Position numbers and translations under genes: made by a program
NCBI GenBank assembly: GCA_036244855.1
Contig: BQKZ01000092.1
Location: 28,136 to 92,135, forward strand
Origin: Temnopleurus reevesii
Lineage: Eukaryota > Echinodermata > Echinoidea > Temnopleuroida > Temnopleuridae
Direction: 5' to 3'
Length of the DNA: 64,000 bases
In this document: one piece after another, positions 12,501 to 63,686 of the stretch
How positions within the stretch are numbered: the first letter of the stretch is position 1
Layout: every line of letters begins with the position of its first letter
Notes under the pieces: model-generated
Database searches by the model: none
What the model was told of the DNA's origin: nothing
Seen by the model: only the letters and a program-made list of their open reading frames with translations

Positions 12501-15500
12501 TATTTATCATCTATATTGGTCTAATAGTCAACTTATGAATGACTACAGGAATAAGGCAGAAAAAATTGTACACATGCCCTCATATGCCATTTTTGAAAAG
12601 TGTCAGTCAGTCAGAAGCTTTTTCTCTGTTTTTTCTAATTTTTCGTACTCAATTTAAACAATTCATGAGGAAAATAAGGCAAATAAGTTGAAAATCCAAT
12701 GGGCATAAATGTAGATATATATTTAGGTCATATTTCACATGTTTATGGATATTTTTACTTTGATAATTTCTGTGAAAAGNNNNNNNNNNNNNNNNNNNNN
12801 NNNNNNNNNNNNNNNNNNNNNNNNNNNNNNNNNNNNNNNNNNNNNNNNNNNNNNNNNNNNNNNNNNNNNNNNNNNNNNNNNNNNNNNNNNNNNNNNNNNN
12901 NNNNNNNNNNNNNNNNNNNNNNNNNNNNNNNNNNNNNNNNNNNNNNNNNNNNNNNNNNNNNNNNNNNNNNNNNNNNNNNNNNNNNNNNNNNNNNNNNNNN
13001 NNNNNNNNNNNNNNNNNNNNNNNNNNNNNNNNNNNNNNNNNNNNNNNNNNNNNNNNNNNNNNNNNNNNNNNNNNNNNNNNNNNNNNNNNNNNNNNNNNNN
13101 NNNNNNNNNNNNNNNNNNNNNNNNNNNNNNNNNNNNNNNNNNNNNNNNNNNNNNNNNNNNNNNNNNNNNNNNNNNNNNNNNNNNNNNNNNNNNNNNNNNN
13201 NNNNNNNNNNNNNNNNNNNNNNNNNNNNNNNNNNNNNNNNNNNNNNNNNNNNNNNNNNNNNNNNNNNNNNNNNNNNNNNNNNNNNNNNNNNNNNNNNNNN
13301 NNNNNNNNNNNNNNNNNNNNNNNNNNNNNNNNNNNNNNNNNNNNNNNNNNNNNNNNNNNNNNNNNNNNNNNNNNNNNNNNNNNNNNNNNNNNNNNNNNNN
13401 NNNNNNNNNNNNNNNNNNNNNNNNNNNNNNNNNNNNNNNNNNNNNNNNNNNNNNNNNNNNNNNNNNNNNNNNNNNNNNNNNNNNNNNNNNNNNNNNNNNN
13501 NNNNNNNNNNNNNNNNNNNNNNNNNNNNNNNNNNNNNNNNNNNNNNNNNNNNNNNNNNNNNNNNNNNNNNNNNNNNNNNNNNNNNNNNNNNNNNNNNNNN
13601 NNNNNNTACCAGGTACCCATTCACCTCACCTGGGTTGAGTGCAGCACAATGTGGATGAATTTCTTGCTGAAGGAAATTAACGCCATGGGTGGGACTCGAA
13701 CCTACGACCCTCTGGTTGAAAGGCGAATGTCATGACCACGACACCACGGCGCCTCCACAAAGGGTTAAGCAGACCCCACATCAAACACATCTTGCAATTA
13801 TACATTTGGACATTTTGATGTTTTAAAGCCATCTTCCTCATCTCTAACAAAAATGCATACCTTTGATTTTTTTTCTCAAATGTATACAGGTATGACCCAC
13901 AAACTAATTCAGTACGAAGAATACTTTGCATCTATGCTCATCCTTCGATTTGGTAGTTTCCACATTGATAAGTCCAATTGTCTCATGGGCATAGGGACTA
14001 TTGAATGGCTACAGGGATAAACAGACCACACATCAAACACATCTTGCAATTATACATTTGGACATTTTGATGTTTAAAAGCCATCTTGGGAATCTCATTA
14101 ACAAGATCACTATAAAACTTGTAGTTGTTTCCATGCAGTCCTGAATTTTTATGTGTTAAAGTTCGCTTTCTTCCCAGATTTTAGTGTGAAAATAAATTGT
14201 ATCTAAGATCCTTTAATGACTATTCAATTGTGTAGAATATAACCTAATTATTTTTGTAACATTTTCAATTCTATGATTAATACCATCGTTTAGCTATCAT
14301 TTATTAGTCTTAATCAATGAAAAAGCATATAGTGAACAAAATTCACAACGTTTATCTATTAATCATATGAAATAATATCAACAGATTCATCTACATGTTG
14401 AAAAATTGATAAATACATTTTGAGGGAGGAACTATCAAGTCTTATCTAATTTCAAGGAAAGTATTGTCTGAAAGAGACAGAAGTATTTTTAACAACAATA
14501 GAATTGGATGAAATGCTTTAATTAGAATTATTATAATGATGGGAGTCTGGAATAGTAAGACTATCCTTTCATCACTCGGCTTACATCTGATGCTGAGATG
14601 GATATGATGTCATGGCTGCCAACCTCAGCTTTCCACCAATCACAACCAAGCTAGCCATATATGGGAGGCAGTCCCATTTACCCACAATGCTTTGCATACC
14701 TCTGCTCCTATATCACTCTCTTTCTCACTCTCCATCTCTCTCCCCCTCTCTCCCCACCCCCTTGTCTGGCTAACTGTGACTGAGTACTATGGTAATTTAC
14801 AGTGCTCTCTGGCATTGTACCTTTGATTGGAACCTAGGGGGCCCCCAATAAGGAGGGTCTGCTTTTTTCATTCTACGGATCGAACCGCACGGCCAATTTG
14901 CAGCCAGGTCTTTTAATTGAAGACCATCTCTGCTTGTTGCTGTGTGCCACACGGGATAACAAAGTTGGGAGCTGGACTCCACTATCTGAATAACGCTTGG
15001 AGCGAATACGAATGAAAGTCTTTTTCACCCCCTTTTGCAACTGAAAAATAAGAAGAAACAGCAACATTTATCGTGAGGAAACGTTGGAAAACGATTTTTG
15101 TTCCCTAAACAAGGATTCCCTCCCCGGAAGGAGAGGTTTTTGGTGCCGTTTAAAGGCGCCACGGGATGGATCTGATTTTTAGTAGAACATAAGAAGCGGT
15201 AGGAATGCATTCTTTCATGTCTATTACATGTGGATTTTATATAAAGGACTTACTGGGTTAACGCAAATCTTTGTTGTAATCTTGAGAAGTTTAGTGGTAA
15301 TGTATGTGATGTTTTTTATGATTTATTTCTTTTTCTGTGCCATTTATGTTTTTTTTAATTTGTTCTGAAGGTTTTTATTGTTCAACTGGCTATGATGCCA
15401 TGTGATTATCTTTTTCTTCAAAATACAAAATTCACAAAGCATCCGTATTATTTTGATAATGATGAACTTTATCATATATTATCAGTTTTCCTAACTTTCT

Positions 15501-44800: not shown

Positions 44801-47800
44801 AACATTTTTAAACACATATTCTTTGGAAAGTAAAGGCATACAAAGGGCAAGGAACAATTGTAGATGACTTTTCAATTTACTTTTTAATGTGAAACAAAAT
44901 GTAAAAACCCAAAGGATGGTTTAAGTCTTTTTTTTTTTTTTAATTACAACCAACTTATTAAGGTAAAGGAAGGGCAAACTGGCGAGGTTCTACTGAAGCA
45001 AATAACATGATAAAAAGATAGAATAACCAAGAAATTGTTAAATATGATATCACAGGGAGACTGAGGAGTACCATATACCCGAACGGGAGAGGCACGCCGG
45101 TGAAGTGAAGAAGAAACACTACAAGCCGACCTTAAAGGTCATACCTTGCGACCTAGAGGTCAAAGAATTCTGGTTAAATGTAGATTAATGAATGAATAGA
45201 GAGTAAAGAAATATTTTTTATTTTAAATTACAGGGAGACTGAGGAGTACCACATCCCTGAACGGGAGAGACAAGCGGGTGAGGTGAGGGAGAAACACTAC
45301 AAGCCGACCTTCAAGGTCATACCTAGCGATCTGGAGGTCAAGGAGGGCAAACTGGCCAGGTTCAACTGCAGAGTGACAGGTCGACCCCCTCCAGATCTCA
45401 CCTGGTACCGCAATGAGATGCCAGTCTATCCAGATGCCAATCATAGGGTAATGATTTTGTGCACTCAGGAATGCTGTCACTTCCTAAGAAAGCAATACTA
45501 GTAGTACCACCATATCGTTTTGCTTTTGGTTACTAGATTACTAGTTCACATATTTCATATGTGGCCTAGGAGTCATTGATTATTGATTATTGATTGGTAT
45601 AATTTTGTGTGTTTGATTTCAGTCAACTGTATTGAAGGGCATGTCAAATGGAAGTAGTACATTATAGTTTTAATCATTGCTGCTCATCTGCTCATTGTTA
45701 TGTCACAGATAGTTGCGTGCGAAACAATGAGCAGACGTGCAAAGCTATGTTGTACTCCGTCTGTCAACGTACCCTTCATCACAGATGACTGAAATAAAAA
45801 GTACTATATGCAGAAAAAATGGTTGACGAGTGATGTCTGTCAATCAGGAGGAGGTTGATTTGAATCCAAGTTGTAGCATCAATTTCCTGTTAGCAAGAAA
45901 TTCATCTGAGCTGCACTCAACCCAAGTGATGTGAATGGATATTGGAAGGAATTTTGATGGAAATTACAGCCATTAGAACCTAAAAGTTTATTGTTAGCCT
46001 TTGTATCCTAGTGTATTTGCATGTCTTAAAGTATGTGTAGAAAGGCTGTTAAAAATATTTTTGTAATGTGTGGTAACTTATGTAGGATGAACAGATAAAG
46101 AATTGAACATTGCCATGATCATATTGTGCTAACAACACTATAAAGGTGATTAATTAATAACTTACCATTTAACAATGCATTCATCTTTCTTTCATACAGG
46201 TACTTGTGAATGAAGGCGGCGAACATGCCCTAATGATATCCTGTGCAAGGCCTCAAGATGGCGGCACATACACATGTATCGCTAAGAACAGAGCAGGAGA
46301 GGCCAAGTTCCATGTCAAACTCACCGTTGATCGTAAGTATTCTATTCATCTTCTTTTGTAAGCAATGTAAATGGTGCCAAAAATGAGGAACATTTTGTCA
46401 CTAGATAAAATACTAGACATAGAAGTTCTATGTGCAATTGTCTACAATTCTCATTTGCCCATTGTGTAAAATACATTACTATATTTACTGTACAAGTAAC
46501 TATTTTAATTCAGTTCATAAAATGTTGATCTATAGATATGAAGTGGCTAATTGCGCTTTGCAATTGTCTTGAACAATGGAAGTGTCTTTAACTGTATATT
46601 ATTAATGTAATCTGTACCAATGGATGACTTCAAGTACGGTGTTCGGTGTTGGTGTTGAGAGAGCAAAATGGTCGGTAAACTGAGCTCCAACGCCGTTGGT
46701 CAGTTTACAGAAGTGATACAGAAACGAACGGAAATACGTCAGAATCTTGCGAGGTCTACCCCAAACACCGACAGACATCAAGTTTGGTGTTGAGGCTGGT
46801 GTTGGTTTTACTGCAACACCAACACCAGCGTTCAATGCCGTACTTGAAGTCACCCAATGTAAATGGCATTGATTGTAAACATAAGTTTTTGTAAATGTAA
46901 TATATTATTGTGGAATTTCTTGCTTTCTTAAAATGCAGCCAAGAGGCAGCTGGTGGCCCCGTCATTCATTGATCGTGTCGAAAATGCAACTGTCAGAGAG
47001 AACGAGTCCGTAACATTGACATGCAAGGTCTCTGGATGCCCCACTCCTCACGTCTCATGGCAACGGGATCAGAAGCACATAATGCCCAATGCCGGCGGGT
47101 ACAGGTAGGTTGAGCATAAAAAGATAGCTATTCAAAGATGAATCTACCAAAGACTACAACAAAGAATGACTTTGTCCACAGGAGATGCTAAAATTGTTTT
47201 TCATGTGACATAGTAGTCTTAAAACTTCTTCATGAACTGTTTTCCAAAACTAATTGATGAGCACAAGCAAAGTTAAAAATTTCTCTGAAAAAAATGAAAC
47301 GGCTATTAATCGCTTGAATTACATAATGTGGTGTAGTAACCTTTTTGGTGTTGATTTTGATGATGTCCTAAATGAGATCATATTTTTTCTTTTAGAATGC
47401 ACAAGAATGAGGAAGGGTGTGCCAACTGTTTATTGTAAGATGCAATGACAGTGCCTGGTATACATGCACAGCACACAACTTGGCTGGATGAGTCTCTTGC
47501 GAAGTAGACAGATTTAAAGAACTCATTAAATTGCTAATGGTTACAAACATTAATTTCTTTTTCTTTCCAGAATGCAAATGAACGAGGAAGGAGTGTGCCA
47601 GCTGTTCATTGAGAGAGTAACACGTCATGACAGCGCTTGGTACACTTGCACAGCACACAACTCGGCTGGTCGAGTCTCCTGTAGAAGTAGGGTCCAAGTA
47701 ATATGTAAGTGTCATCAGGGGCATTGACTATATTTTACATGTGTAAAACATATAAATACACTAAATGATTATGATCAATATATTATGCAAATTTGCATTT

Positions 47801-53295: not shown

Positions 53296-56200
53296 ATGAT
53301 GGGAGTTGGAAGAAATGTGATAGGAGGGGGCGAGGAAGGAGAGGAATGAGGAGAAGGAAGGAGGTGGAGGTGAGAAAGTAGGGGAATTATGAGGACAGGA
53401 GAAGGTTAAAGAGGGTTAGGAGGGGAAAGAAGAGGAGGAAAAGAAAGTATGAAGAGGAAGGTTGAGAAAGAAGATAAGGAAGTGTAGGAACTGTGCAGAA
53501 GGAGGTGATTGATTGGAGGAGAGGAAGACTGTGGTAGTAGTAATACTGAATAATGATAGTTTAATGAGAGTAACAATGATTTGATAATGATCAGATAGAG
53601 CATGGGGAGGAGAAGGAGCAGGAGGAGAAAAATAGTATGATCATATTGTTGACAATAATTATGATATTGAGAATGTTGTAATGATAGTGCTTGTTGTTTT
53701 TATGGAGAATACTATTTCCGCTGCTGCTGATTCTTTTTTTAAATCATTGAATTTTGTCACATCTTCACCCTTACAGCAAGGGGCTCGCATGAAGTCTTGG
53801 TTTGATGGTATCCACTACATGGAGATCTCCAAGGCCCGAGTAGCTGACTCTGGAGTCATTCGATTGGTCGCTCGCAATAAACTTGGCATGGTCGAGTTCA
53901 AGACCAAACTTGAAGTCAAACCAAGGGAAGTTCAGCCGCCCCAATTGAAGCCAACACCTAAAGGTAAGGGCTCTTTAATAAAAGAATCTTGACATTGTAT
54001 ATGTATACAAGTATAGTGAGACAAAGGCTTCACGATACAACAAGTTATCTTTCTTGGAAATGTGATTTTCAAGAAAGATAACTTGTACTGTGAATCCTTC
54101 TCAACATTCATCCGCGAGTGAATTCTTTGAGCAATATATATATATATACAAGTGTATTTTCTGAATGGTATTTAATTGTTTTCGTTTGATAATAATAATT
54201 ATAATACACGGCTTTTATATAGCGCTTATCAACTCTTCATTAGAATTCTCTAAGCGCTCTACAATTGCAGCATTATTACCCTGGCTTTAGCCCGGCAGCC
54301 ACTTTATTAGCGCACTTGGCATTTCAAAGAAAATATTCCTACCAGGTACCCATTCACCTCACCTGGGTTGAGTGCAGCACAATCTGGATGAATTTCTTGC
54401 TGAAGGAAATTGACGCCATAGGTGGGATTCGAACCTACGACCCTCTGGTTGAAAGGCGAGAGTCAGAACCACTACACTACGGTGCCTCCGTAGTTACTAG
54501 GACTTAGTTCCTCCTGTTTCTTAGAGAATATTTGGCAGCAAGAGAAACTCTCCACCCCTGTGATTTTCAGCATGGGAGTGGGTGTTAGTCCAGTTCTAGT
54601 CCATCATTTTCAAGTCCCGTAGGACAGTTCACTTTCAGGGGCCACCCTTGTTATCGCTTGCCACTCCTTAGGTCTGGTTTTACAGAGGCTTTTGGGTGCT
54701 GTACATATGGCATTAGTCGTAACTTGGTGTATGCTTGATATGGGTGTATAATTGATGAACATGTAAGTACACCAATATCCTTGCCAGAATGGGACCAAAT
54801 AATTCAAGCCCTAAATCATGCCTTGGCCCATGGCCTAAGTGTAATTTTCAAATTTTTCATTTGATGGTATTGTTGATGAAAATGTGCTAAATGTCTTGAT
54901 GTTTTTAGAATGGGTAAGATGGAAAGGAAGTTTTGAAAGAAAATGATTCAGGAAATGCAATTTTTGTAATTTCCATTGGTCATATGAATTAATTTGTAAC
55001 AATTGTTATAATTTTGTGTTATACAGAGGCTAAAGTCCCTCAGGCCAAGCCGAAGATGTATGAATTGCCAAAGACCCAAGCTGCTAAGCCACGTAAGTCC
55101 TTTATATTGATATTGATTTTGGATGCTGAATGTTCCTAAATGACTCTAATTAACACCCCATTGCCAATTAAATTAAATTGCCTTGCCTAACAGCGAGGTA
55201 ATTTCCATGAGAAGAAATCAGTTCTCTTGCCCAAGTTATCACATTGTTAAAGGTTTGCATAATAATTTTAAGCAAGAAGTTTTGAAGTTGACTATGTTTA
55301 TCACATTATAATGAAGGTTTCTCCTATATAGTATTGAAAGGGATGTTTGCAATATATAAACAGCTTTAAGATAATAATTTTTTTCAGAAGAACCATCCAC
55401 AATAATATTCTTATTGGAATAAACAAGGATCCACACTATTGAAGAAAAATCTAGAATAACCGTCTTTCCTGTTTACTATGATACAATAAGTACTTGTGTG
55501 TTAATTAATAAAATGTACTAAATATATTAAAATTATAATTTTCATCATGATTGATTAGAATGATTTGATCAAGTTTATTTATGCAAATGGAATGAAAGAA
55601 CAGTAATTATAGTAATAACAAAATGATGAAAAGAAAAACAGACATCTTTTTTTCCCTCCAGAGTGTTAAAGATCAAGTATGAAATTTTCTACCCACATAT
55701 AAACATAACAACTGATTGTGTTGTACAATGTCATAAATCTGTTAATGTGATGTAATACTAATACTAACCAAAAGAATATTGAATTGCATGCCATTGATTC
55801 GAACAGATGAACCACCCAATGAGTTAGAGGCGGTATTCAGGCGACGTTCCCAGCATGCAGCCCCCCTTCCCCTTTCCAGAAAGCCTGTTGATAGCCCAAG
55901 AAGGGCCAGTGCAAGCCCCGCCCTGGCAGTGAAACTAAAACCTGTCCAGAAACAATCTCCTCTGGATAAGCCTAAAGAAAAACCACCCTCTCAGGATAGT
56001 CTGAGGAATGTAACACCAAAGAAGGTAGAATCGGATGAAGGTTTCAAAGGCTACCCAGCTCTTTCAGATAGAAGCAGAACGAGAGATGCTACACCTCTTG
56101 TTCCTCGCAATCAGGAATTGAATAGCTTCAAACGACATATTGATGAGAAGGTTGCAGCAGAAACTGTTTCACCTGTCAGGAGTGCACCAAAGTATCTTGA

Positions 56201-59200
56201 CAAGATTCTGGATACAGATCACAAGGTACCTGTTGATGAAAGCTTGTCAACAGAATCTGTCCACAGCGAGGATATTGATGACCTCTACCAAGAACTCTCT
56301 GGAAGAGATGGGAAGCTATCTGCAGATGAGAGCGATGAAGATGCCGAACCCATTGATGAAAGAGTTGTTGCTGAAGCAGTTACACCTGTTAAAACCGCCC
56401 CCTTGAGTTTGGACATGATTCCGGATGCAGTCAACACAGTTCCTATTGACGAAAGCGTATACTCGGAATCCGTCCATAGCGAGGACAGTAGAGTAACTTA
56501 TCTTTATGATAAACTCTCTCGACCATCCATGGATGAAAGAGTTGCTGCCGATGTCCGCCCCAATGGTGCCTATGAAGAGCTATCCCTGACAGACCGAACT
56601 GACCAAATGCCATCGGAAACAACTCATGATGATTATACCTTGCCAACTACCTCGTCTATCTCGGATACCAACAAGAGTGAGACTCAAGAACCATTTCAGA
56701 GTACAAGGTACTTTCAACCAGTTCATGCGCAAGCAAAAAGTGAGGATGCATATAGCGATTCTGAGACCTCTACTCCAGTTTCCTCAGAAGACTATCTTCC
56801 TGCTTTTGAGATCGAAGCCCTTGAAGAAGAAGTTCGTCCCAGGCAGCCGCAGCCACAGCATGTCAGCAAAGGTGGTTATCTTATACCCATAACACGAGAA
56901 GTTGTCAATCCAGAGAAAGAAGAAGTAGTTTTCGCTCGTCCCAAGCCAAGAGGTATCTCCCCTGAAGACAGTGACAGCAAAACTCCTTCTAATTCAGATG
57001 TAGATGACTCTGAAGAAGGGCGCCACACTCCTATCAATATAAGAGAGTCGGATAGTCGTGGAAGCAGTGACCGCTATACATCTTCAGTGTCATTGCCAAT
57101 AAGTCAAGATGAAGAAACATTGAGAAAAAATGATGAGCCATTTGTTGTTGAGTTCTTGCTTGAAACGCCACCAGTTAAGGATGATGGATTTGACAGGGCA
57201 TTGCCAGTCGAAGGCAGACCAATCAGACCAATGTATTCTGTTGTTCTAGCCCCATCATCATCTTCAACATCCTCCGATTCATCAGAATCTGAAGATTCTG
57301 TGGTAGAATCTGTCCAAAAAGATACTGGAACAGAGAGCGAGGGAAGTGGGTCATGCATTGCAGAAGCAATGATAGAGAAGCCACTGAGTGATTATGAAAC
57401 GCTCAAAAGGCCATGGCCAGTTGGAAGCAAAGCTTTCCCAGAGAAAGCTCTTGATGAATCCAAAAGGCCGTCAAGCTCTTCTGGATCTTCATCAGGTTCA
57501 GACGCATCACTTGTAAGAGAAGACCAAGTTGCTGAAAGAGAAGTAAAAGGACCTTACATAGTAGAAGTTATGCTGGAGAAGCCACCAGTCTATGATGAGA
57601 AACTTGATAGAGCTTTGCCAATATCTGCAGGATCCTATCAATTGCGACAACCAAAGAAGCGCCAAGGGTCCTCAACTTCTTCATTGTCATCATCATCATC
57701 ATCAAGTTCATCAGATTCTGAACAATCTGATACACCAGAGAGGCTGGTTATCCAAGATCAGGAACTTGAAAGAGCCGTGCCAGTGACTGCAGAACAACCA
57801 AGGAAACACAGAGATTCCTCAAGTTCGTCATTTTCATCAAGTTCAGCAGATTCTGGAGAATTTGTTCTGGATGAATCAAAGCCCATTCTTGAGGATGTCA
57901 CACACAAGCAGAATGAGCCTTTAGTTGAGGATGCCATGGAGAAGATATCCATCCAAGATGACAAAGCCACCAGAATCTTGCCATTGTCAGCCAGCTCAAT
58001 TATAAAGGAACAACCTAGGAAACACAAACACTCCTCAAGCTCACCCTCTTCATCATCAGAATCATCATCTCCATCTGATTCAGATAATATGCATGTATTA
58101 CCTGATGCTGATGGCGTGAAGGCTCAGAAACAAAATTCCGAGCCATTTGTTGTGCAAGTAATGCTAGAGAAGCCACCAGTGAGAGGTGTGAAACTTGACA
58201 GAGCTTTGCCTGGAGGAAATGAATCTTTCACACAGAAGCCTCTTGATGAATCATCAAGTTCTTCTTCATCCTCTGCTGAGAGAGCGCTGCCACTATCAGC
58301 AGGATCCTTGAAACTCCAACAACGAAAGGAATCATCTAGCTCTTCACTGTCATCTTCAAATTCTGATGCAGAGACTCTTCCCAAAGACAACGTATCAGAC
58401 AAAACAAAGAGTGAGCCATATATTGTTGAAATTATGTTGGAGAAACCTCCCATTCTAGATGAAAAACTTGACAGAGCTCTACCAGTATCGTCAAGCTCTG
58501 TACCACATGAACAATTTAGGAAACGCAAAACATCCTCCAGCTCTTCATCATCATCCTCTTCATCAGATTCAAATGAATCAGATGCAGAGGAAATGCCCGT
58601 TGAAGATGACAAGCTTTCCAAGGCCTTGCCTGTATCAAGTATTCCTGAAAGGAAATATCCAAACCAACTTGATGACTCAACAGGTTACCAATCTTCGTCA
58701 CACTCTTCTTCAACGTCGCACTCTGAAGACTCTGAATCAGAGTCTGAGCCACATAGGTATTCCACCTCAATATCTCTTCTGAAGCCTAAAGCACAGGAAC
58801 CATCAAGTCTGAAAGACAGCGAAGCAAGTGAAGGAAGCAGATCACCATCAAGAACTTCCTCTGCATCCCAATCCTCTGACTCCGAACTATCACAAAGTCT
58901 ACCAGCAAAGAGGGACCAACAACACTATACTCCCTTGAATATTCAGTTGGATACTAAGCGTTCAGATGGTAGTGGAAAGAAAAAGAGACATACTTCTTCC
59001 AGCTCAGAAGACTATGAACTTGAGAAACCAGATACAAAGCTGATGACAAGGAAAATTGAAACCAAAACCACCAGGACCGGCGAAGAAGAGAGTGTGCCAT
59101 CAATTGAGAAGAAATTACCCAGAAGAAGATCATCATCTTCTTTCTCTTCATCATCCTCCTCATCCTCACCATCGTCTAGTAGTGATGAAGAAACACAGAT

Positions 59201-62200
59201 TTCTAGAGCAGGCCTAATGTTGCAACGTCATCAAGACAGTCCGAAAGAGAAATTTGAACAAGATAGAGCACCCAGAAGTCCTCTGGAGGATGGAACCATT
59301 GAAGTGGTTTTAGAGGTTGCACCAAGAGAACTTGATGAAGATCAGATCCAAGAGGAGAGGCTAGCTCCAGTGGAAGCACTCCCTCAGGAACAGTAACTAC
59401 CAACAGGGGATGATGAACCTGTTGCCTTTGACATCACTGTAGACTATGCACCAGATTCAGTTGAAGCAAAACCTACCAGAAGAACATTTTTTGACGAAGA
59501 TGATGATGAACTGCCGCCACTCTTTAGCTCACCTTTTGGCAAGAATTCAATACTCCGTTCAAAGCCTGACCCTGTGCCTCCTGCACAGTTTTACCCTGTA
59601 GAACCACAGCTTGAAATAACAACCATGGCGCAAAGGAAAGATCTTAGTGAATCATCAACAGGTGAAGATGACGAGGAAATTGAAAAGGAGGAGGAAAGTG
59701 ATCAAGCTAAGCTAGCGAGAAGAATTTCCATGACCCAGAAGAAGGCCCTCAATCCTACCGGGGCACCGATCTTCAAGCAGCGTCTACAGGACGTGAAATG
59801 CAAACAGGGTGAAACCATCACCTTCAATGTCAAGTTTACAGGAGTTCCACCATTCTCTGTAACATGGTTCCAAGACGGATACGAGATGGAAGACTCTGAG
59901 GACTCTCAGATCCTTGTTAGCGATGACTACAGCTCCTTGACGGTTCCAAACACTGCACCGGAAGACAACAGCATGATTGAGGTCCAGATCAAGAACGATT
60001 TTGGCGCTGCTGCCTCAACAGCCATGTTGACAGTGGAAGGTACAATCAATCTTCAAGCATTTATCTTCAATTCATCTTCTCTCTGACAAAAAAATATAGA
60101 AATAGCCTCATCTCTCCTCATGCTAAAAACTGCCATTTCGACTTCACTCCTGGATCATAGTATATGTTGCAGAACACTTACATCTGTGGTATATCTTGCA
60201 TTTCATAACCATGTGTTTTTCTCTAAAGAACAGCTCTTTTATGGATATATGTTGTGTGTGATACTAGTTGTGTATGTTGTGTTTTAGTCCTTTTCTTATC
60301 TTATAGTCTGTTTACCTTGCATTCTAACTGCCCATTTCTAATGAAATAATAACAAACCTTCTTGTCAATATTTTACATTTTTGAAATGCTGCATAATAAT
60401 GTTAAGTTTTCTTTCAGTTTATCAGCCTGTAAAGCGAAACAGCATCAGTAGTATGCAAATGCTCTTATAGTACATAGACTGGTTTGAATGATTTGAAAAA
60501 TTATGCTTTCTCTTGAGCTTGATGCTTCTTTTGGAAAATGTAGAAATGCAACAAAATTGCCTGAAATACATTCTTATTCTAATAGTTTATTTGTATGTGT
60601 TACAGTTTACTATCATGCCTTTGTGTCTTTCTACGAAAAAATTATTTATTTTGAACAATGCTCTAATTAATTTTCAATCTTCGCTTTTGAAACCAGCCTT
60701 TTATAATTGTCTTGTAATTGTGCTTAGCACTGCTTGAATAACTACCAACGATTGTACTTCAGATATGTATCATAAATCTTTTTCCAAGATAAATGTGTCA
60801 TGTATCCAAATGTACATGTGGCAGTTAATATAAAATTTGCAACAAACATGGGTAATTTTGCAATATTTAATGATGGTAGTCTCAGAAACAATCAAGTTAC
60901 TGTGTTTGTTTGTATCTTTAGGTATTTGCAACTTTGTTTCTTTTGCATATTTTGTGTACATTATTGTAAAACCATGACACATGTCTCATAATTTTCCCTA
61001 TATCAGTGTAGTTCATCATATTACAATGACATTTATTCAAAATATTTCAAATTACACATGCATCATGTCATCCATCTAGAATATTCATTTCATCAGAAAA
61101 TGTGAATAATCAAATAGCTAAATTTATTCTTTTTACTTCATAGGAAAACACAAACTTAAGATAAGTTTTTTTTTTGTAAAATTATTCCTCCAAGAGAAAC
61201 ATATAATATATCTCACCAAGAGTTTTTGAAAATTGGCTGATATAAAGGCTCTTTAAAAATATTGCCCTTCATTGTTATGTCCAATGTTCCATTCATACAT
61301 CTGGCAAACATCTGTTTCATTTTGCAATGTTTTTCTCCACTCTTTATCTATACCTATTTAGCATTATTCTGGATCATATATATTACATTTTAATGTCAAA
61401 TCCGGTTTTATTAATGACTAATGATTTCCAGAAAAAGGGAAAATGAACACTAAATTTTGTACACAGTTGAAACTATTAATTCGCAGTGGAAACTTTCTCA
61501 TAGTTGGTTGATTAAAAAACCCTCTTCATTACTAATCAGCTGTAAGGAAAGGTAGAAATGAAAATTGACATATTAATGATTAGAATGATAATTAACTTGT
61601 AGAACCCAACTTTTGGGAACCGTGCTTGCTAGTCTGAAATAGAATTTATATTTCCTAGGTGCCAAAGAGTGCAGATAATCCATTGATGTTACAATTAATA
61701 TGTTTTGTTGAATGTTAACTCAAGTTCTTATAGAATTTTTAGAATTGAGATGGTTTTAAAATTAAGCCATCTTCCTTGTCAATGACAATGGTAGTATGTT
61801 GAAATGGTCTGCCACCAAAACCTCACATTCACTGTACACTTTAAAATTGAATGGCAGATACTGACTTGTCTACAAATGTCATATTCCTGACTGTTTTGGT
61901 AATATATTAGGCTTCACAAGGGACTGCAAATCTTTTGTTACATGTACCCAGGATTATTTTAGAACACTCACAGCTGCTTTGTGTATCTCTTATCTCCTTT
62001 TTTAATAACTTTATATGTTAACTTTTCATGGCTCTACTATTGTCAAACAAATTTTCATGGATTCTTGTCTTATTCTCTATGATAGTGTCAATTAATGATA
62101 AAGGTTGTCCCAGGAGATAGATAGATACACAATAGTATTGTTCTTTCAAATAGATTAGCTGGTATGCAGTTATCCTTTTGTGGATCTATCAGTATTAATA

Positions 62201-63686
62201 CATCGTCATTCATTTATTCATTCACATTACAGAGGTCCAACAACCAATGTACGAGGCACCAGGGTTCCACTCTGCCCCGCCCCCATTGACTGTGGGTTCA
62301 CCAGGAGAGCCAATCAGATTGTCATGTCGTGTGTCGGGATCTCCAGCACCAAAGGTCATCTGGTCAAAGGTCAGTATAAAGGATACTCATTGGATGAAAT
62401 GTTACCCAACATGTTAAAAGAGTAATTAGGATTTTATTTTGCAAATGATAGACAAATGATAGATGCAGGCCATTCGAAATGATAGACAAATGATAGACGC
62501 AGGCCATTTGGCATATGCTCATCTTTTCTACTGCACAGACCTATGAGGTACTTGATGTGTCCTCAGTCAATTTACAATTGATTTGTAATGGAAAGTAACT
62601 TTCTAGCTTCAAAACCTAATAGTTTCTTTGTGGTCGAGTGTCTATAGTGAACATCACAATCATTACTGTAGATAAGATTGTGTATGATTTTGTAGGTGGC
62701 ATCTGTCTTTCATGGCAACTTTGTCTGTTTCCTGTGATGGCCAATCAAAAATTGTAGGAAATTTTAACTAGTTGAAACAAAACCCACCAGAAATTGATAA
62801 GAAATTATGCCCTGTATATATTTTCAATTTCAAACTAGGATGGACGACTCCTATCTAGTGTACCTAGGATAAAAATCCTACAGGATGAGTCCATCCACAC
62901 ATTGCTGATCCTAGAATGTTTACCAGTGATTTATATACGAATGATCGATTTTACCCTTTATTTCCTTTTTTCAAACTAGGATGGACGTCTCCTATCCAGT
63001 GTACCTAGGATGAAAATCCTACAGGACGAATCCATCCACACACTGCTGATCCTGGAATGTCTACCAGAGGATGCAGGCAGTTACACCATTGAGATCATCA
63101 ATACTAGTGGAAAGAAGAGCCATTGCTTCCAAGTTGATGTTGAAGGTAAGCTTGATTTGGTGTTTTTATTTTGCTTTGGCAATTTGCAAAAATCTCTGAC
63201 TTAATGCTTCCATGCTGATGTGAAAGTTAGATTAATTTATTGTCTTAATTTTCTTTAGAGCTTCGAACATCAAAATTGACTAAAGTAATATGGAAAGTGT
63301 GATTAAATAGAAATCAAGAAAATAAGGATTTTATCCATGAAACAAGTATATGCAAGGGTTGCAGCGCCAGTAAATGATATTTCAACGGTAACCGTATAAT
63401 CACCTCGAAGCTGCCTCCATCACCACACAAAGATTGTGGGATTTCTCTGTAATGAATGATAAAAGAAGACATACTATAACATTTGTCACTCTATTAATTC
63501 TACTCAAAACAGGTGCTAAGCCAGATGACTTTGAGCCTCAGTATGGCCAGCAATCAGCCTACCCTCACCATGAGGTGAAACTGATCGGACAAGCTACACT
63601 GCCCGAGTTCAGGAGTGTGCTTACAGACTGCCTGGTGCCCGACGGAAGCCCTGTCGAACTTGCCTGTGAAGTTGTAGCATCGCCTC
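9485..63686 (+). CDS. TTN: Titin ortholog, N-terminal Z-disc/proximal I-band part (31 exons, 3' end beyond window)
   Basis: Titin is the giant sarcomeric ruler and spring; its N-terminus is anchored in the Z-disc. Thirty-one exons totalling about 9.07 kb join with compatible phase at every junction. The order of Ig domains and linkers matches vertebrate titin from Z1 onward as I know that protein: Z1/Z2 without the first Ig Cys; Ig3 with WYREG; Ig4 followed by a charged YNKWLEDYEEQQ tail (titin has a similar EYEKEYEKEQ stretch); FExRLxxEI motifs; an Ig8 with DPTMRIEWF; an LPEEMRGIE linker; and Ig9 with DGIHYMEI. Differences are the Pro/Gln linker in place of Z-repeats and the Ser-rich insertion after Ig9. 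A related giant muscle protein (sallimus/kettin type) is the main alternative, but the linker matches favour titin. One in-frame stop (59394) interrupts the chain. Confidence 0.88.
10005..10960. repeat. Three-unit diverged tandem repeat (period about 350-430 bp)
   Basis: The segment TGTATTCTGAGAACACCCTGG, then CATGTGGTGTTGA, GTTGTGTCATATTTATGGATG, ACATGGCT and TGGTCAGA, occurs near 10040, 10475 and 10825. The third unit is the most diverged. Confidence 0.75.
11415..11442. repeat. Perfect 28-bp palindrome
   Basis: CATGGATATATCAG is followed directly by its exact reverse complement CTGATATATCCATG with no spacer. The centre CAGCTG is an E-box. It may form a cruciform or hairpin. Confidence 0.85.
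11485..11665. repeat. Short direct duplication, about 132 bp apart
   Basis: GCAAAATCAAGGGAAAC.TATGATGAACATGTGAAA occurs near 11489 and again near 11621. No coding meaning was found. Confidence 0.5.
12780..13606. other. Assembly gap (827 n)
   Basis: Every base is n. The long frames of X across it are artefacts. The gap ends inside a SINE, consistent with a repeat-caused break, and missing exons in it cannot be excluded. Confidence 0.99.
13607..13757 (-). repeat. tRNA-derived SINE (5' part in gap)
   Basis: On the minus strand the element begins GGAGGCGCCGTGGTGTCGTGG (box A-like) and carries GGTTCGAGTCC (box B, 13692-13702), then a body through TGGGTACCTGGTA that continues into the gap. It is nearly identical to the element at 54190-54488, so this is a recently active dispersed SINE rather than a functional tRNA gene. 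Confidence 0.85.
13759..14095. repeat. Direct duplication of an about 75-bp segment
   Basis: CACATCAAACACATCTTGCA followed by TTATACATTTGGACATTTTG and AAAGCCATCTT occurs at about 13776-13834 and again at about 14030-14088. Confidence 0.7.
14655..14664 (+). promoter_or_regulatory. Perfect CArG box (SRF site) 1
   Basis: CCATATATGG fits the SRF consensus CC(A/T)6GG exactly. SRF drives many sarcomere genes. It lies in a GC-richer island (about 14580-15240) that also contains a TGATGTCA half-CRE-like motif upstream and CTATATCA 40-50 bp downstream. Function is inferred. Confidence 0.5.
15202..15245 (+). promoter_or_regulatory. Candidate core promoter: M-CAT plus TATA box
   Basis: GGAATG (15202-15207, the TEF/TEAD M-CAT element in reverse) is followed by TATATAAA (15238-15245), a consensus TATA box. 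A transcript starting about 30 bp downstream, near 15270, would need an untranslated exon spliced to 23632, where an ATG with a purine-poor but acceptable context (GCCATGA) lies at 23684. No donor for such an exon could be chosen with confidence. Confidence 0.35.
15840..15928. repeat. AAT/GAT-rich microsatellite
   Basis: Imperfect AATAATGATAATAAT repeats. Confidence 0.75.
17032..17054. repeat. T23 homopolymer
   Basis: Twenty-three consecutive T; possibly the poly(A) end of a minus-strand retro-element, but no element body was recognised next to it. Confidence 0.8.
18155..18285. repeat. AATAAT/GATAAT microsatellite
   Basis: Low-complexity repeat that generates poly-Asn and poly-Leu frames on the two strands; neither is a gene. 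Confidence 0.8.
19740..19980 (+). promoter_or_regulatory. Second muscle-type regulatory cluster (CArG 2, M-CAT, E-box)
   Basis: CAGATG (E-box), GGAATG (M-CAT reverse, 19870-19875) and a second perfect CArG box CCATATATGG (19887-19896) lie within about 50 bp, in a local rise of GC content. The CArG is identical to that at 14655. The cluster is 3.7 kb upstream of the Z1 exon. An enhancer or alternative promoter for a short N-terminus is inferred from motif clustering only. Confidence 0.4.
23133..23177 (+). pseudogene. Z1 ghost exon, copy 0 (most decayed)
   Basis: CATTGAGACC..ACCACCACCA, then TATAGCTCCATG and CCAGTAGCTG, align with the start of the live Z1 exon, with about 8-base deletions. No splice sites remain. 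Confidence 0.6.
23270..23451 (+). pseudogene. Z1 ghost exon, copy 1
   Basis: The first about 105 bases match the live Z1 exon (23632), but the acceptor has changed from ACAG to ACCG, one extra G shifts the frame in the GAGCCGGGGG run, and the exon is cut off after ACCGCTCAAA, where sequence identical to the intron upstream of the live exon begins. The unit is 182 bp. Confidence 0.85.
23452..23631 (+). pseudogene. Z1 ghost exon, copy 2
   Basis: It has an intact TTTTTACAG acceptor and over 95 percent identity to the first part of the live exon, but one T is deleted (AAAGTCAC in place of AAAGTTCAC) and the exon is cut off at the same point as copy 1. It has no donor. The unit is 180 bp and the following intron sequence is the live exon's own acceptor region. 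Confidence 0.88.
23632..23792 (+). CDS. TTN: Titin exon 1: pre-Z1 segment and first half of Ig1 (Z1)
   Basis: Acceptor TTTTTACAG, donor AAGG/GTAAGT. It encodes IETTTTTTRVVYSS, then MSRGRIGQEEAPKFTQPLKS and the first strands of Ig1 up to AELKG. APKFTQPLKSV corresponds to human titin APTFTQPLQSV, where the protein starts two residues after Met. The ATG at 23684 is thus the titin-like start; upstream open sequence allows a longer N-terminus. The first Ig cysteine position is not Cys, as in titin Z1. Confidence 0.9.
24572..24769 (+). CDS. TTN: Titin exon 2: second half of Ig1 (Z1)
   Basis: Starts G/GT AAC CCT after CCCCTCAG and ends CAAG/GTATGT. NPEPTVKWFKDDKELKS holds the core Trp; DDGQYKCVADNKCGNA gives the DxGxYxC motif of strand F. 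With exon 1 it completes a domain of about 95 residues. In vertebrates Z1-Z2 bind telethonin; whether that partner exists here cannot be told. Confidence 0.92.
25019..25176. repeat. MITE with about 27-bp terminal inverted repeats
   Basis: The left end GGTGTTTCATCAAGATTTGT is mirrored at the right end (ACAAATCTTGATGAAACACC). Total length is about 158 bp with no coding potential. It inserted into the intron between exons 2 and 3. Confidence 0.85.
26042..26329 (+). CDS. TTN: Titin exon 3: complete Ig2 (Z2)
   Basis: Acceptor TTCACAG/GTGATTC, donor AGGA/GTAAGT. The 96-residue exon encodes a whole I-set Ig: APEIVTGLQGQEKTEGDSVR, TWYQNGDELKN, FQISDEG-like DIQISDEGDRYILVI, EDAGEYSVRAENAAG. Like titin Z2 it lacks both canonical cysteines. 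Exon GC content is clearly above the flanking introns. Confidence 0.92.
28325..28500. repeat. MITE-like element, copy B
   Basis: Ends GGAGTGTTGCTCAAAAGTTG and the inverted TGATTTTGAGCAACACCCC are flanked on both sides by CTAAG, a possible 5-bp target duplication. The interior (GCGCATCTTGTTAAATGCGC) matches copy A at 420-597 in opposite orientation. Confidence 0.75.
28502..28832. repeat. MITE-like element, related longer form
   Basis: GATGCTAGAAAGTTGTAATTGATT at the left is inverted as AATCAATTGCAACCATCTAGCA at the right, about 330 bp apart. Ends are related to copy B, which it directly adjoins. Confidence 0.6.
29857..29895. repeat. TTA microsatellite
   Basis: About 12 perfect TTA units. Confidence 0.9.
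30058..30251 (+). CDS. TTN: Titin exon 4: Pro/Gln-rich linker, part 1
   Basis: Acceptor CACCATCAG, donor AGAG/GTAAAT. Joined in phase after Ig2 it reads RTAPTEEVKPQPPPQEQ, then QQQPQQKEES and blocks of five or six Pro separated by KPEEKAQ and QEKAQPT. It is a disordered proline/glutamine spacer. All three forward frames are open over much of the CCA-rich core (Pro, His or Thr runs); phase with exons 3 and 5 selects the Pro frame. Confidence 0.85.
30869..31085. repeat. Dispersed repeat copy (same family as 5050-5240)
   Basis: AAAGCCCATGTATAGTTTTG, TAAGAAATGTGAATTTT, CATGACATATA and the TTAAATCGTATTTAGC...TTATTGGGCATA segment match parts of the 4852-6477 unit. Confidence 0.7.
31239..31400 (+). 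CDS. Second copy of the Pro/Gln linker exon (5' end lost at an n)
   Basis: 162 bases immediately after a single n (31238) match exon 4 from CCACCACCACAAGAACAACC to the donor (AGAG/GTAAAT), with only two base changes seen, one synonymous and one Ala to Thr. The downstream intron also resembles the exon 4 intron but is clearly more diverged. The donor and phase are intact; the acceptor is unknown because of the n. It may be a real duplicated exon, adding a second 54-residue Pro-rich block, or an unmerged contig. Confidence 0.5.
31999..32151 (+). CDS. TTN: Titin exon 5: Pro/Gln/Val-rich linker, part 2
   Basis: Acceptor CTCTGCAG, donor AACA/GTAAGT, both phase 0. It encodes 51 residues: VKPAPAPPAEVKKPEAEVK, PPPPQPQPQVQSQQVQIQV and KPQQQQPKQVQQT. 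The alternating Gln-Val and PEVK-like character suggests an extended, flexible or elastic segment, but it is not a PEVK region by position. Confidence 0.85.
32862..32960 (+). CDS. TTN: Titin exon 6: Ala/Pro linker and start of Ig3
   Basis: Acceptor TTTTATAG, donor CAAG/GTATGC, 33 codons, phase 0 at both ends. IELKMETPTVAAAAPKPAA and a Pro-rich stretch lead into SGPVFTK, the first strand of Ig3. Confidence 0.85.
33165..33405 (-). repeat. Degraded tRNA-derived SINE
   Basis: GGATTTGAACCGCAATCTTC (degenerate box B region on the minus strand), TGCCAAAGAAAATTAATGTC and the TGGTAGAGTGCAG region follow the order of the 54190-54488 SINE with many changes. Confidence 0.65.
33822..34080 (+). CDS. TTN: Titin exon 7: Ig3
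   Basis: Acceptor CTTGACAG, donor AACC/GTAAGT. TLSEVTAKEGKQVKLECAVK, VKWYREGALLTS, YDDAGQYACSATNTKGSKST and CNVRV form a canonical I-set Ig with both cysteines and the core Trp. It corresponds to the Ig following the Z-repeat region of vertebrate titin (TVTWYREDYQIESS, FTCSAVNEAG). Confidence 0.93.
34613..34862 (+). CDS. TTN: Titin exon 8: linker and first half of Ig4
   Basis: Acceptor CCTTATTAG, donor ATAG/GTGCGT. A disordered linker (PGTPPPGDQPTQQPSVET and onward) is followed by GPPEFTKPLLPG, RLSCTIRGNPPPKITWLRHG and PIESGYR. The titin equivalent is APYFITKPVVQ with GVPLTTGYR; the break after GYR matches the usual C-D intron position in this gene. Confidence 0.92.
35434..35576 (+). CDS. 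TTN: Titin exon 9: second half of Ig4
   Basis: Acceptor ATCCCAG, donor CCAC/GTAAGT. FVIKYDEKTGVASLDITM and EDKGEYTCIAKSKAG complete Ig4, matching titin YKVSYNKQTGECKLVISM and the strand F region. It ends in phase 1 leading to the charged tail of exon 10. Confidence 0.93.
35745..35884. repeat. Long imperfect hairpin (MITE-like)
   Basis: TATACAATGACT, GGTTAAAACTATTCGCAC and ATCAGATAGTA on the left are inverted on the right (TACTATCTGAT, GTGCAAATAGTTTTCACC, AGTCATTGTATA) over about 140 bp. Terminal motif is TACAATGAC. Confidence 0.75.
36479..36564 (+). pseudogene. Ghost copy of exon 10
   Basis: It follows an AG acceptor (GTATAG) and matches the first about 85 bases of exon 10, but TGG of YNKW is TAG (stop), three bases of the Lys run are missing, and the exon is cut off after GAACTT. 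The upstream introns of the two copies also align, so this is a tandem duplication of intron end plus exon start, period 232 bp. Confidence 0.85.
36711..36868 (+). CDS. TTN: Titin exon 10: charged helical tail after Ig4
   Basis: Acceptor CATGTTTAG, donor TCAG/GTAAGT. It encodes QYNKWLEDYEEQQAIDKAKK, then KDIVNKELEAKVLEKGGKV and TPSQATYQDADQ. It is Lys/Glu-rich and probably alpha-helical, matching the helical segment after the same Ig in titin (ELLMKSQQEML and EYEKEYEKEQALIRKKMAK). Confidence 0.9.
37173..37256 (+). CDS. Second copy of the 3' part of exon 10 (5' end lost at an n)
   Basis: 84 bases after a single n (37172) encode the same 28 residues as the end of exon 10 (VNKELEAKVLEKGGKV...DADQ) with six base differences, all synonymous, and a good donor (CAG/GTAAGT). 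The following intron is far more diverged than the exon. The pattern indicates a copy under protein-level selection, thus possibly a real second or alternative exon; the acceptor cannot be seen. Confidence 0.5.
38270..38386 (+). CDS. TTN: Titin exon 11: FExRL-type repeat 1
   Basis: Thirty-nine codons in phase 0: DVPQRRPSLSPYLERIQQEV, then DYRDRLSRTSVYEPPMEWK, donor AAG/GTAGTC. SPYLERIQQEVDYR aligns with SPFERRLMREVEIR of exon 12 and with titin SSFEERLIKEIEYR. The acceptor is either GATAG at 38269 (used here) or GCAG at 38281; both keep the phase. The frame differs from the longer overlapping open frame, which has no similarity. Confidence 0.78.
38387..40002. other. Intron 11 (1.6 kb), nothing recognised
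   Basis: AT-rich sequence without a supported exon or clear repeat. Confidence 0.5.
40003..40098 (+). CDS. TTN: Titin exon 12: FExRL repeat 2
   Basis: Acceptor TTTTTTCAG, donor CAG/GTACAT, 32 codons, phase 0 at both ends: TSKLSPFERRLMREVEIREQ, then ATGSRPGPRADQ. A short amphipathic helix motif, the counterpart of titin SSFEERLIKEIEYR. Confidence 0.87.
41051..41143 (+). CDS. TTN: Titin exon 13: FExRL repeat 3
   Basis: Acceptor ATTACAG, phase 0: DSKASAFESRLEKEIRFRER, then KSSQDYDATDG. The donor chosen (GGG/GTGTGT) is weak but is the one that keeps phase with exon 14, since shifting the next exon gives an immediate stop. The frame stays open past it, so intron retention would extend the protein by about 80 residues. 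Confidence 0.8.
41144..43771. other. Intron 13 (2.6 kb) with a tandem duplication
   Basis: No supported exon. A tandem duplication with an embedded minisatellite lies at 41737-42110 and a TA run at 42719-42735. Confidence 0.55.
41737..42110. repeat. 194-bp tandem duplication containing a 14-bp minisatellite
   Basis: TTCTATTCCTCCATGTAGG at 41737 and TTCTAATCCTCCATGTAGG at 41931 start two aligned units (CACCCCCTTTGTTTTTCTTA and AACTGAACCAATAT are shared). In the second unit CCATGTAGGTTCCT is expanded to about four copies (41941-42000). Confidence 0.85.
43772..44002 (+). CDS. TTN: Titin exon 14: acidic linker and first half of Ig5
   Basis: Acceptor CAATGCAG, donor TTCG/GTATGT, 77 codons. GPFDVAAFEASLLNQK is a fourth, weaker FExxL motif; a Glu-rich segment (ESMEAETETELESELETSE) follows, then APRFLKELKNFRVGEGGR and GLSCRVEGRPKPS. 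Titin has an acidic ELLEEDGEE stretch before the same Ig. Confidence 0.9.
44398..44642 (+). CDS. TTN: Titin exon 15: second half of Ig5 and linker
   Basis: Acceptor GCCTTACAG, donor GCAT/GTAAGT. IQWFKDGYPLPRATRYDL, QLRIDLVLPEDKGAYTVFAW and NQFGKAV complete Ig5; strand F has Val in place of Cys (AYTVFAW), as in titin (IYTAFAS with VLPEDEG). A linker GHKSEEVSHMKGALGARVS follows. Confidence 0.92.
44961..45167 (+). pseudogene. Ghost copy of exon 16, split and rearranged
   Basis: From 45056, after a good acceptor (ATCACAG), 112 bases match the start of exon 16, then homology stops at GTCAAAGAA. The continuation of that exon (AAGGGCAAACTGGC.AGGTTC) lies upstream at 44961-44996 with a one-base insertion. 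There is no donor, and read-through meets a stop within a few codons. Period to the live exon is 178 bp. Confidence 0.85.
45234..45447 (+). CDS. TTN: Titin exon 16: linker and first half of Ig6
   Basis: Acceptor AAATTACAG, donor AGG/GTAATG. METEEYHIPERERQAGEVRE is followed by KPTFKVIPSDLEVKEGKLAR, FNCRVTGRPPPDLTWYRNE and PVYPDANHR. Titin has KPVFVLKPVSFKCLEGQTAR and GRPMPETFWFHDG at this place. Confidence 0.92.
45828..45945 (+). repeat. SINE fragment, opposite orientation
   Basis: GGTTGATTTGAATCCAAG (degenerate box B), TTTCCTGTTAGCAAGAAATT and GAGCTGCACTCAACCCAAGT match the reverse complement of the SINE body at 54190-54488. Confidence 0.7.
46200..46332 (+). CDS. TTN: Titin exon 17: second half of Ig6
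   Basis: Acceptor TTCATACAG, donor GATC/GTAAGT. VLVNEGGEHALMISCARPQD, GGTYTCIAKNRAGEAKFHVK; titin has VVIKEDGTQSLIIVPATPSD and WTVVAQNRAGRS. Confidence 0.92.
46616..46858. repeat. MITE-like element with TGACTTCAAGTACGG ends
   Basis: ATGACTTCAAGTACGGTGTT on the left and GCCGTACTTGAAGTCACCC on the right are inverted, as are GGTGTTGGTGTTG and CAACACCAACACC. About 243 bp, noncoding, in the intron before exon 18. Confidence 0.85.
46939..47104 (+). CDS. TTN: Titin exon 18: first half of Ig7
   Basis: Acceptor AAATGCAG, donor ACAG/GTAGGT. PKRQLVAPSFIDRVENATVR, SVTLTCKVSGCPTPHVSWQR and NAGGYR; corresponds to titin KPMFVEKLKNVNIKEGSR. Confidence 0.92.
47396..47507 (+). pseudogene. Ghost copy of exon 19
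   Basis: After an intact acceptor (TTCTTTTAG), 112 bases match exon 19 almost to its end. There is a frameshift in GGAGTG, an about 7-base deletion around GAGAGAGTAACACG, an in-frame TGA at the Arg of AGRV, and no donor. Period to the live exon is 175 bp. Confidence 0.88.
47571..47704 (+). CDS. TTN: Titin exon 19: second half of Ig7
   Basis: Acceptor TTTCCAG, donor ATAT/GTAAGT. MQMNEEGVCQLFIERVTRHD, SAWYTCTAHNSAGRVSCRSR; titin has SQDSAWYTATAINKAGRDTT at the same place, one of the closest matches in the window. Confidence 0.93.
48205..48265 (+). CDS. TTN: Titin exon 20: Ig7-Ig8 linker
   Basis: Acceptor ATTTTTAG, donor AAAG/GTAAGA. YDKLIKDNEPAPIFQRRPTQ plus a split codon. Short, but phase fits on both sides. 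Confidence 0.78.
48850..48873 (+). CDS. TTN: Candidate 24-nt micro-exon (20b)
   Basis: Between GAATGCAG and CAG/GTAACT lies a phase 2-2 segment of exactly 24 nt that would insert REEYAIYY between RRPTQ and SKKPPPPP without changing the frame. Because it is symmetric it could be a cassette exon. Supported only by splice sites and phase. Confidence 0.4.
48874..51407. other. Intron before exon 21 (2.5 kb), nothing recognised
   Basis: AT-rich, no supported exon or clear mobile element. Confidence 0.5.
51408..51646 (+). CDS. TTN: Titin exon 21: linker and first half of Ig8
   Basis: Acceptor TTTTCAG, donor TTG/GTAAGA. SKKPPPPPEKEDIPSYVTQY, then KPTVKPEFVVPLNDNLKKKE, HFACRLQPAGDPTMRIEWF. Titin has HFECRLTPIGDPTMVVEWL: DPTM after a CRL core is a signature of this one titin Ig (and of kettin-type Igs). 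Confidence 0.93.
51904..52047 (+). CDS. TTN: Titin exon 22: second half of Ig8
   Basis: Acceptor TTCTGCAG, donor CTTG/GTATGT. GSRVQTKYEFGICSLDIKGV, EDAGTITCRATNKHGSAETS; titin has NEFGYCSLDYGVAYSRDSG and ITCRATNKYGTDHTS. Confidence 0.94.
52469..52556 (+). CDS. TTN: Titin exon 23: Ig8-Ig9 linker
   Basis: Acceptor CTGTACAG, donor CAGC/GTAAGT. AEQSLILETQLPEEMRGIEK and TIQFDEYLSA. Titin has SLVEESQLPEGRKGLQRIEE, so this inter-Ig linker is itself conserved. Confidence 0.9.
53001..53178 (+). CDS. TTN: Titin exon 24: first half of Ig9
   Basis: Acceptor TTTTGTAG, donor GGG/GTAAGA. RPELVTVPEPLSILEGEAAR, FSCRVSGVPTPRVSWFREDL; titin has PDIVLYPEPVRVLEGETAR and CRVTGYPQPKVNWYLNG. Confidence 0.93.
53237..53294. 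repeat. GAT microsatellite
   Basis: About 18 units of GAT, followed by a purine-rich tract to about 53520. Confidence 0.9.
53777..53963 (+). CDS. TTN: Titin exon 25: second half of Ig9 and start of linker
   Basis: Acceptor CCTTACAG, donor AAAG/GTAAGG. MKSWFDGIHYMEISKARVAD, RLVARNKLGMVEFKTKLEVK, PREVQPPQLKPTPK. Titin has RVRYDGIHYLDIVDCKSYD. Strand F lacks Cys here (VIRLVARN), as in titin (VKVTAEN). Confidence 0.93.
54026..54097 (+). ncRNA. Intronic stem-loop of pre-miRNA size (candidate)
   Basis: CAAGTTATCTTTCTTG pairs perfectly with CAAGAAAGATAACTTG around a short loop, extended by GG.TTCAC against GTGAA.CC beyond a small internal loop. The total is about 72 nt in the intron after exon 25. 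It could be a small RNA precursor or a tiny inverted-repeat transposon relic; no expression evidence. Confidence 0.35.
54190..54488 (-). repeat. tRNA-derived SINE (near complete)
   Basis: On the minus strand it starts GGAGGCACCGTAGTGTAGTGG (box A region 54469-54480), has a perfect box B GGTTCGAATCC (54425-54435), then a body with the TGCTGCACTCAACCCAGGTG segment, and ends in a TTATTATCAAAC-type tail. A second good copy is cut by the assembly gap at 13607. Confidence 0.9.
55027..55092 (+). CDS. TTN: Titin exon 26: short linker
   Basis: Acceptor GTTATACAG, donor CCAC/GTAAGT, 22 codons, phase 1-1: EAKVPQAKPKMYELPKTQAA and KP. It links Ig9 to the Ser-rich exon; symmetric phase would permit skipping. 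Confidence 0.85.
55807..60039 (+). CDS. TTN: Titin exon 27: giant Ser/acidic-rich insertion plus Ig10, interrupted by one in-frame stop
   Basis: Acceptor GAACAG at 55806, donor GAAG/GTACAA. The first residues HEPPNELEAVFRRRS resemble titin ELRSKFKRRTEEG after Ig9, and the end is Ig10 (APIFKQRLQDVKCKQGETIT, FSVTWFQDGYEMED), the titin APKIFERIQSQTVGQGSDAH domain. Between them about 1,300 residues have no vertebrate counterpart I know. Parts: a basic/Pro start; two 71-residue repeats (IDEKVAAETVSPVRSAP at 56139, IDERVVAEAVTPVKTAP at 56352); then modules with VEVMLEKPP...DEKLDRALPVS and poly-Ser/Asp tracts at 57135, 57549, 57915, 58140 and 58413; later weaker ones at 59292 and 59415. TAA lies at 59394-59396 in context CAG TAA CTA; the same frame is open before and after. 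Probably disordered and heavily phosphorylated (SD/SE-rich). Confidence 0.85.
59394..59396 (+). other. In-frame TAA inside exon 27
   Basis: All codons from 55809 to 59393 and from 59397 to the donor at 60040 are in one frame. Downstream coding is still module-like (DEPVAFDITVDYAP) and enters a normal Ig10. No GT-AG pair of plausible intron size was seen that removes only the stop. A nonsense allele, sequencing error, readthrough site or RNA-level change are possible. Confidence 0.9.
60040..62232. other. Intron 27 (2.2 kb), nothing recognised
   Basis: AT-rich sequence with no supported exon or clear repeat family. Confidence 0.5.
62233..62369 (+). CDS. TTN: Titin exon 28: first half of Ig11
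   Basis: Acceptor CATTACAG, donor AAAG/GTCAGT. EVQQPMYEAPGFHSAPPPLT, SPGEPIRLSCRVSGSPAPKV, IWSK. An I-set Ig start with Cys and core Trp. Confidence 0.9.
62448..62512. repeat. Two-copy 32-bp tandem repeat
   Basis: ATGATAGACAAATGATAGA followed by GCAGGCCATT occurs twice in tandem (from 62448 and 62479). Confidence 0.8.
62839..62928 (+). pseudogene. Ghost copy of exon 29
   Basis: After an identical acceptor (TTTCAAACTAG), 88 bases match exon 29, then homology stops after TTACCAG. Of eight differences counted by eye, seven are synonymous and one is Met to Ile. There is no donor; reading on meets the TAG of the live acceptor. Period is 141 bp. Confidence 0.88.
62980..63145 (+). CDS. TTN: Titin exon 29: second half of Ig11
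   Basis: Acceptor TCAAACTAG, donor GAAG/GTAAGC. DGRLLSSVPRMKILQDESIH, LLILECLPEDAGSYTIEIIN, TSGKKSHCFQVDVE. Strand F has Ile in place of Cys (YTIEIIN). Confidence 0.92.
63513..63686 (+). CDS. TTN: Titin exon 30: linker and start of Ig12 (gene continues)
   Basis: Acceptor CAAAACAG, donor CCTC/GTGAGT. GAKPDDFEPQYGQQSAYPHH leads to LPEFRSVLTDCLVPDGSPVE and LACEVVASPR, the first strands of another Ig whose second half must lie beyond 64000. Confidence 0.88.

Follow-up and report, generated by a model that had tools for sequence, protein, structure and literature searches.

An in-frame stop codon in a giant exon of a titin-like gene

The stretch of DNA analyzed here (64,000 nucleotides of a Temnopleurus reevesii contig, hereafter the window) carries on its + strand part of a gene with the long tandem Ig arrays and PEVK-rich stretches of titin/connectin, a protein described as present in amphioxus and ascidians (PMC12198301). 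Along the gene's part of the contig we found 57 Ig matches in addition to the one described below, some of them being halves of one domain, and the summed content of P, E, V and K reaches 45-56% in three of the seven stretches measured. Within this gene, a single giant exon (55807-60039, acceptor at 55807 and donor at 60040) spans 4,233 nt or 1,411 codons and encodes a Ser-rich spacer followed by an Ig domain. It is in phase 1 at both ends, in agreement with the preceding exon (55027-55092), which ends in phase 1, and the following one (62233-62369, its end located by eye at AAAG|GTCAGT), which starts in phase 1. Its frame contains one stop codon, a TAA at 59394-59396 (CAG TAA CTA), which is the sole stop of that frame from 55746 to 60083, as the first-pass annotation had noted for about 1,410 codons. 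That annotation had placed the stop in the middle of the largest exon of the gene; in fact 85% of the exon precedes it and 643 nt separate it from the donor, and the exon is the largest within the window only, as one of 3,655 codons belongs to the same gene further along the contig.

The two remaining frames of the exon hold 54 and 141 stops, and 500 composition shuffles contained 78 stops on average, with a minimum of 57; the open frame is therefore not a product of chance. Coding sequence continues on the 3' side of the TAA, as had been proposed from a first reading, since the 120 codons linking it to the Ig domain (59397-59762) score +49.7 bits in the same, open frame, versus -10.3 and +21.9 bits in the other frames, which carry 5 and 18 stops. 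This stretch stayed open in only 14 of 20,000 shuffles. The Ig domain itself (59766-60029, the tenth of the gene by our own count) is intact, as also proposed, matches the Pfam I-set model with 64.9 bits, and has titin chains as its top matches among PDB sequences, so that altogether 214 codons are open 3' of the stop. A further claim, that a repeat module continues across the stop, was not borne out. The module (EPxVVEVMLEKPP..LDRALP) occurs in four clear copies between 57129 and 58502 (starts at 57129, 57543, 58134 and 58407), and a model built from these copies did not match anywhere in the 120 residues linking the TAA to the Ig domain, while some weak match to it appeared in 1,382 of 2,000 shuffles. 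Protein homology searches with the pieces flanking the TAA on either side returned nothing at E <= 0.001. A search of the assembly for an allelic or second copy of the region around 59394 retrieved only the region itself, and thus no sense allele was seen.

Other in-frame stops in the same gene

The second giant exon, which lies outside the window (84131-95095 by window numbering, C92:112266-123230), is also in phase 1 at both ends, with splice sites located by eye. It is PEVK-like, bears Ig domains and is built of tandem units of approximately 355 codons. Two in-frame stops interrupt it, a TAA at 86755, with 894 open codons before it and 1,232 after, and a TGA at 90454, which separates the 1,232-codon frame from one of 1,554 codons. 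Of three tandem copies, the last one carries the TGA and the two others read TGT at this place. Between copies B and C, 37 of 200 codons differ and 26 of these 37 differences are synonymous, suggesting that the stop-bearing copy was largely kept as coding sequence after the copies parted.

Two more TAAs (144562 and 144670) are found in a single Ig exon (144463-144717, window coordinates), which brings the gene to five in-frame stops. The 57 Ig matches that lie elsewhere than in the first giant exon, some being half-domains, total 4,167 codons and contain three stops, which fall in two of the matches. The type of stop codon is mixed over the five, and the sequences that follow them (CTACCA, GAAGAT, CAAATC, AAGAAT and GCTGTA) have nothing in common. 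If the gene is essential, five stops would seem too many to be explained by natural lethal alleles alone. The flanks of the Ig exon look splice-like by eye, and its acceptor scores weakly. Both of its TAAs occupy positions that are usually aromatic in Ig domains.

Lone stops recur in giant exons across the assembly

A single conspicuous stop can be interpreted only once the frequency of such stops across the assembly is known. In an I-set profile search, for which 150 of 575 candidates were scored, four of the 150 scored matches contained stops: two on this contig, a TGA on contig C7224 and a TAG on contig C5872, the latter standing at the very start of its match and hence left out of the count; the sequence was read for all four. 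A cadherin search gave stops in 10 of 120 matches, three of which were read in the sequence; the seven others were partial matches, whose stops would raise the rate if real. The cadherin stops that were read comprise two TAAs in one giant exon, flanked by long open frames (C8555:5800-10800), and a lone TGA in another giant exon, amid long open frames as well (C350:167400-168900). When another copy of the C8555 sequence around its stops was searched for, only that sequence itself came back.

Taken over giant exons outside this contig, lone stops are present in 2 of 15, with at least 3 stops in 12,571 codons, and this rate is no different from that of this contig (3 stops in 9,645 codons of seven giant frames of at least 400 codons, p 1.0, leaving out a 2,840-aa frame that starts in unread bases (X)). 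The 15 exons were hand-picked from the I-set and cadherin tables (frames of at least 400 aa), and five of them were fetched, two of these being chosen for showing stops. The off-contig rate is thus a lower bound, because in the remaining 10 any stop beyond the domain matches would go unseen. Lengths of these 15 exons were measured from stop to stop and may include some intron. At the off-contig rate, the chance of meeting at least one stop in 1,411 codons is about 29%. The TAA at 59394 is therefore not unusual for this assembly, as lone stops recur both in this gene and in giant cadherin exons.

An unprogrammed substitution as the preferred explanation

Given the similar lone stops in other giant exons, we consider it probable that the TAA at 59394 reflects one unprogrammed substitution, whether an error in the consensus sequence or a nonsense allele on one haplotype. 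Among the options raised by the first-pass annotation, this is the one that fared best, backed by the recurrence of lone stops and by the presence of divergent haplotypes. As to its two forms, a wrong base in the assembly consensus is a serious candidate that falls slightly short of being probable by itself, and a real nonsense allele is put forward more tentatively. In such a scenario, a recent single-base change would have struck an ordinary-looking titin exon, through an error in the assembly consensus or on the haplotype that happened to be assembled here. The common form of the gene would have a sense codon at 59394, and any transcript truly bearing the TAA would encode a truncated protein and would probably be degraded. 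Nonsense variants and base errors in assembled genes resemble the present case in showing one in-frame stop in an exon that is otherwise open and coding, and in recurring at a low rate across an assembly; they differ in usually being accompanied by frameshifts, none of which were noticed here by eye. A programmed role for the TAA is very probably not what we are looking at, and the alternatives of this kind are weighed below.

Programmed alternatives

The TAA could serve to produce a short Z-disc titin whenever the giant exon is included, with the full-length protein arising when the exon is skipped or entered past the stop, which would make it a convergent analogue of the vertebrate novex-3 isoform. 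The exon is symmetric (phase 1-1, 4,233 nt) and its neighbors join in frame without a stop when it is skipped, so that short and long titin forms are possible in principle. Entry past the stop could also use an acceptor-like site at 59601 (in phase as counted manually), whose score of 4.1 falls within the range of 22 trained acceptors (3.1-13.4); the trained splice sites were themselves picked by consensus score. Yet no AATAAA occurs from 59397 to 62233, the single ATTAAA (61511) lies in the intron, and the exon continues to a donor at 60040, in place of the poly(A) signal of its own that a terminal exon of the novex-3 kind would have. A stop lying far upstream of an exon junction is expected to trigger transcript decay under the 50-nt rule, and this one is 643 nt before the donor. 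Moreover, the 214 codons past the stop are still open with their Ig domain intact, and the two stops of the second giant exon sit at different places. In vertebrates, novex-3 is made by exon 48, located between exons 47 and 49 (PMC5852582). Both are large titin exons that would cut the protein short when included, but the exon described here is a different one that bears the tenth Ig, is symmetric, remains open past the stop and is followed by no AATAAA ahead of the next exon. The proposal of a short Z-disc form next to a full-length one keeps the in-frame skipping in its favor, and we regard this proposal as unlikely. A small in-frame intron removing the TAA (an exitron, with a donor GTAACT overlapping the stop) is the least probable of the alternatives. 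The best in-frame intron of at most 400 nt over the stop would measure 135 nt, from a donor at 59393 (ACA|GTAACT) to an acceptor at 59527. This pair came out best among 143 donors and 53 acceptors, its donor scores 3.9 and thereby falls below all 23 trained donors (minimum 6.3, these too having been chosen by consensus score), and the piece that would be removed scores as coding.

Readthrough had also been suggested in the first-pass annotation, in view of the CTA triplet that follows the stop. Programmed readthrough of the UAA in a permissive CUA context would yield little full-length titin and mostly a truncated product. The context (UAA CUA CCA) does supply C at +4 and A at +9, both of which are reported to promote readthrough in human cells (PMC10954755), and a 7-bp hairpin (CAACAGG/CCUGUUG, 59401-59424) is found shortly 3' of the stop. 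However, UAA is the least permissive stop in human cells according to the same source (PMC10954755), and the hairpin is no more stable than expected from shuffles, 50 of 200 of which fold as well; in three stretches downstream of the TAA, no unusual RNA structure was detected (z = -0.59, -1.06 and -0.34). Functional readthrough of the UGA CUA type shares the CUA after the stop with this locus, but involves UGA in place of UAA, and no unusually stable downstream structure accompanies the stop here. At +4, the four other stops of the gene show G, C, A and G, in line with the differing contexts listed above, and full-length titin would be rare, as serial stops would multiply the loss. In one open-access library searched for titin together with readthrough or in-frame stops, two papers (PMC5009743, PMC8310308) speak, where they name titin, only of keeping the reading frame along its length. 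The favorable nucleotides at +4 and +9 stand, and the proposal as a whole is very improbable. The same holds for a wide tolerance of stops by near-cognate tRNA recoding, under which in-frame stops at Tyr and Cys codons would be nearly neutral. In its favor, the four real Ig-domain stops are found at sites where a Tyr or a Cys would be expected, whose codons need only a third-base change to become a stop, and such changes make up about 17% of stop-making ones (kappa 2), so that the pattern would arise by chance with a probability of roughly 0.001, a value attached to a pattern noticed post hoc and to four stops of which two share one exon. Against it, the TGA of the cadherin exon on C350 falls at the Arg position of a DRE motif in neighboring repeats, and under recoding TGA would therefore need two meanings. 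The TAAs on C8555 are at variable positions, the second one at a place where neighboring repeats have S, Q, T or Y. Recoding specific to Tyr and Cys was consequently set aside, with one of three cadherin stops at an Arg position and the other two at variable ones, and the recoding idea is weakened. Where the lost residue can be guessed, it varies: a Cys from the alignment of tandem copies, two aromatic residues and one Cys from the comparison of Ig domains, and an Arg in the cadherin. Scattered substitutions thus offer a simpler account than recoding. A broader form of tolerance, acting genome-wide through raised readthrough or through the skipping of large symmetric exons, so that giant genes such as those of titin and cadherins would contain several internal stops and be made as truncated and full-length proteins, also appears improbable, if marginally less so. 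Should reads confirm the stops, such a tolerance in giant genes would come as a real surprise.

Haplotypes and other features of the locus

Within the preferred explanation of an unprogrammed substitution, the choice between a base error and a nonsense allele can be approached through the haplotypes. Contig C10172 is allelic to this contig, with 96.6% identity over 63486-71354 of the window, and blocks flanking this region in the longer alignment (61867-72127, window coordinates) differ by 11-22%. Judging from these sequences, the assembly holds divergent haplotypes. The match to C10172 starts about 2.5 kb 3' of the TAA, so the stop itself is uncovered. A per-base error rate of about 0.2%, which would yield these stops, predicts about 3.2 differences between haplotigs, and the haplotig coding pairs showed one difference in about 800 first- and second-position sites (P(<=1) = 0.17), in a comparison of about 1,200 coding nt that involved a manual frame correction in one exon and to which a further contig, C5821, contributed 279 usable coding nt, much of its stretch being N. 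With so few sites, the comparison does not decide between error and allele. Indels are usually found both among natural loss-of-function alleles and among the errors of long reads. Inspection by eye revealed no frameshift in the giant exons or Ig matches of this contig, which fits neither a base error nor a nonsense allele perfectly. A search on assembly quality in one open-access library provided no usable base rate.

In one block of the alignment with C10172, two exons differ at 14 sites, and all 14 changes are at third codon positions. The window also contains a run of N of 827 nt (12780-13606). Directly 5' of one Ig exon lies a truncated duplicate of a piece of that exon (62804-62926 / 62948-63067), with 86% identity, and similar partial duplicates are found at 47384-47507 and at 81342-81470, the latter outside the window.
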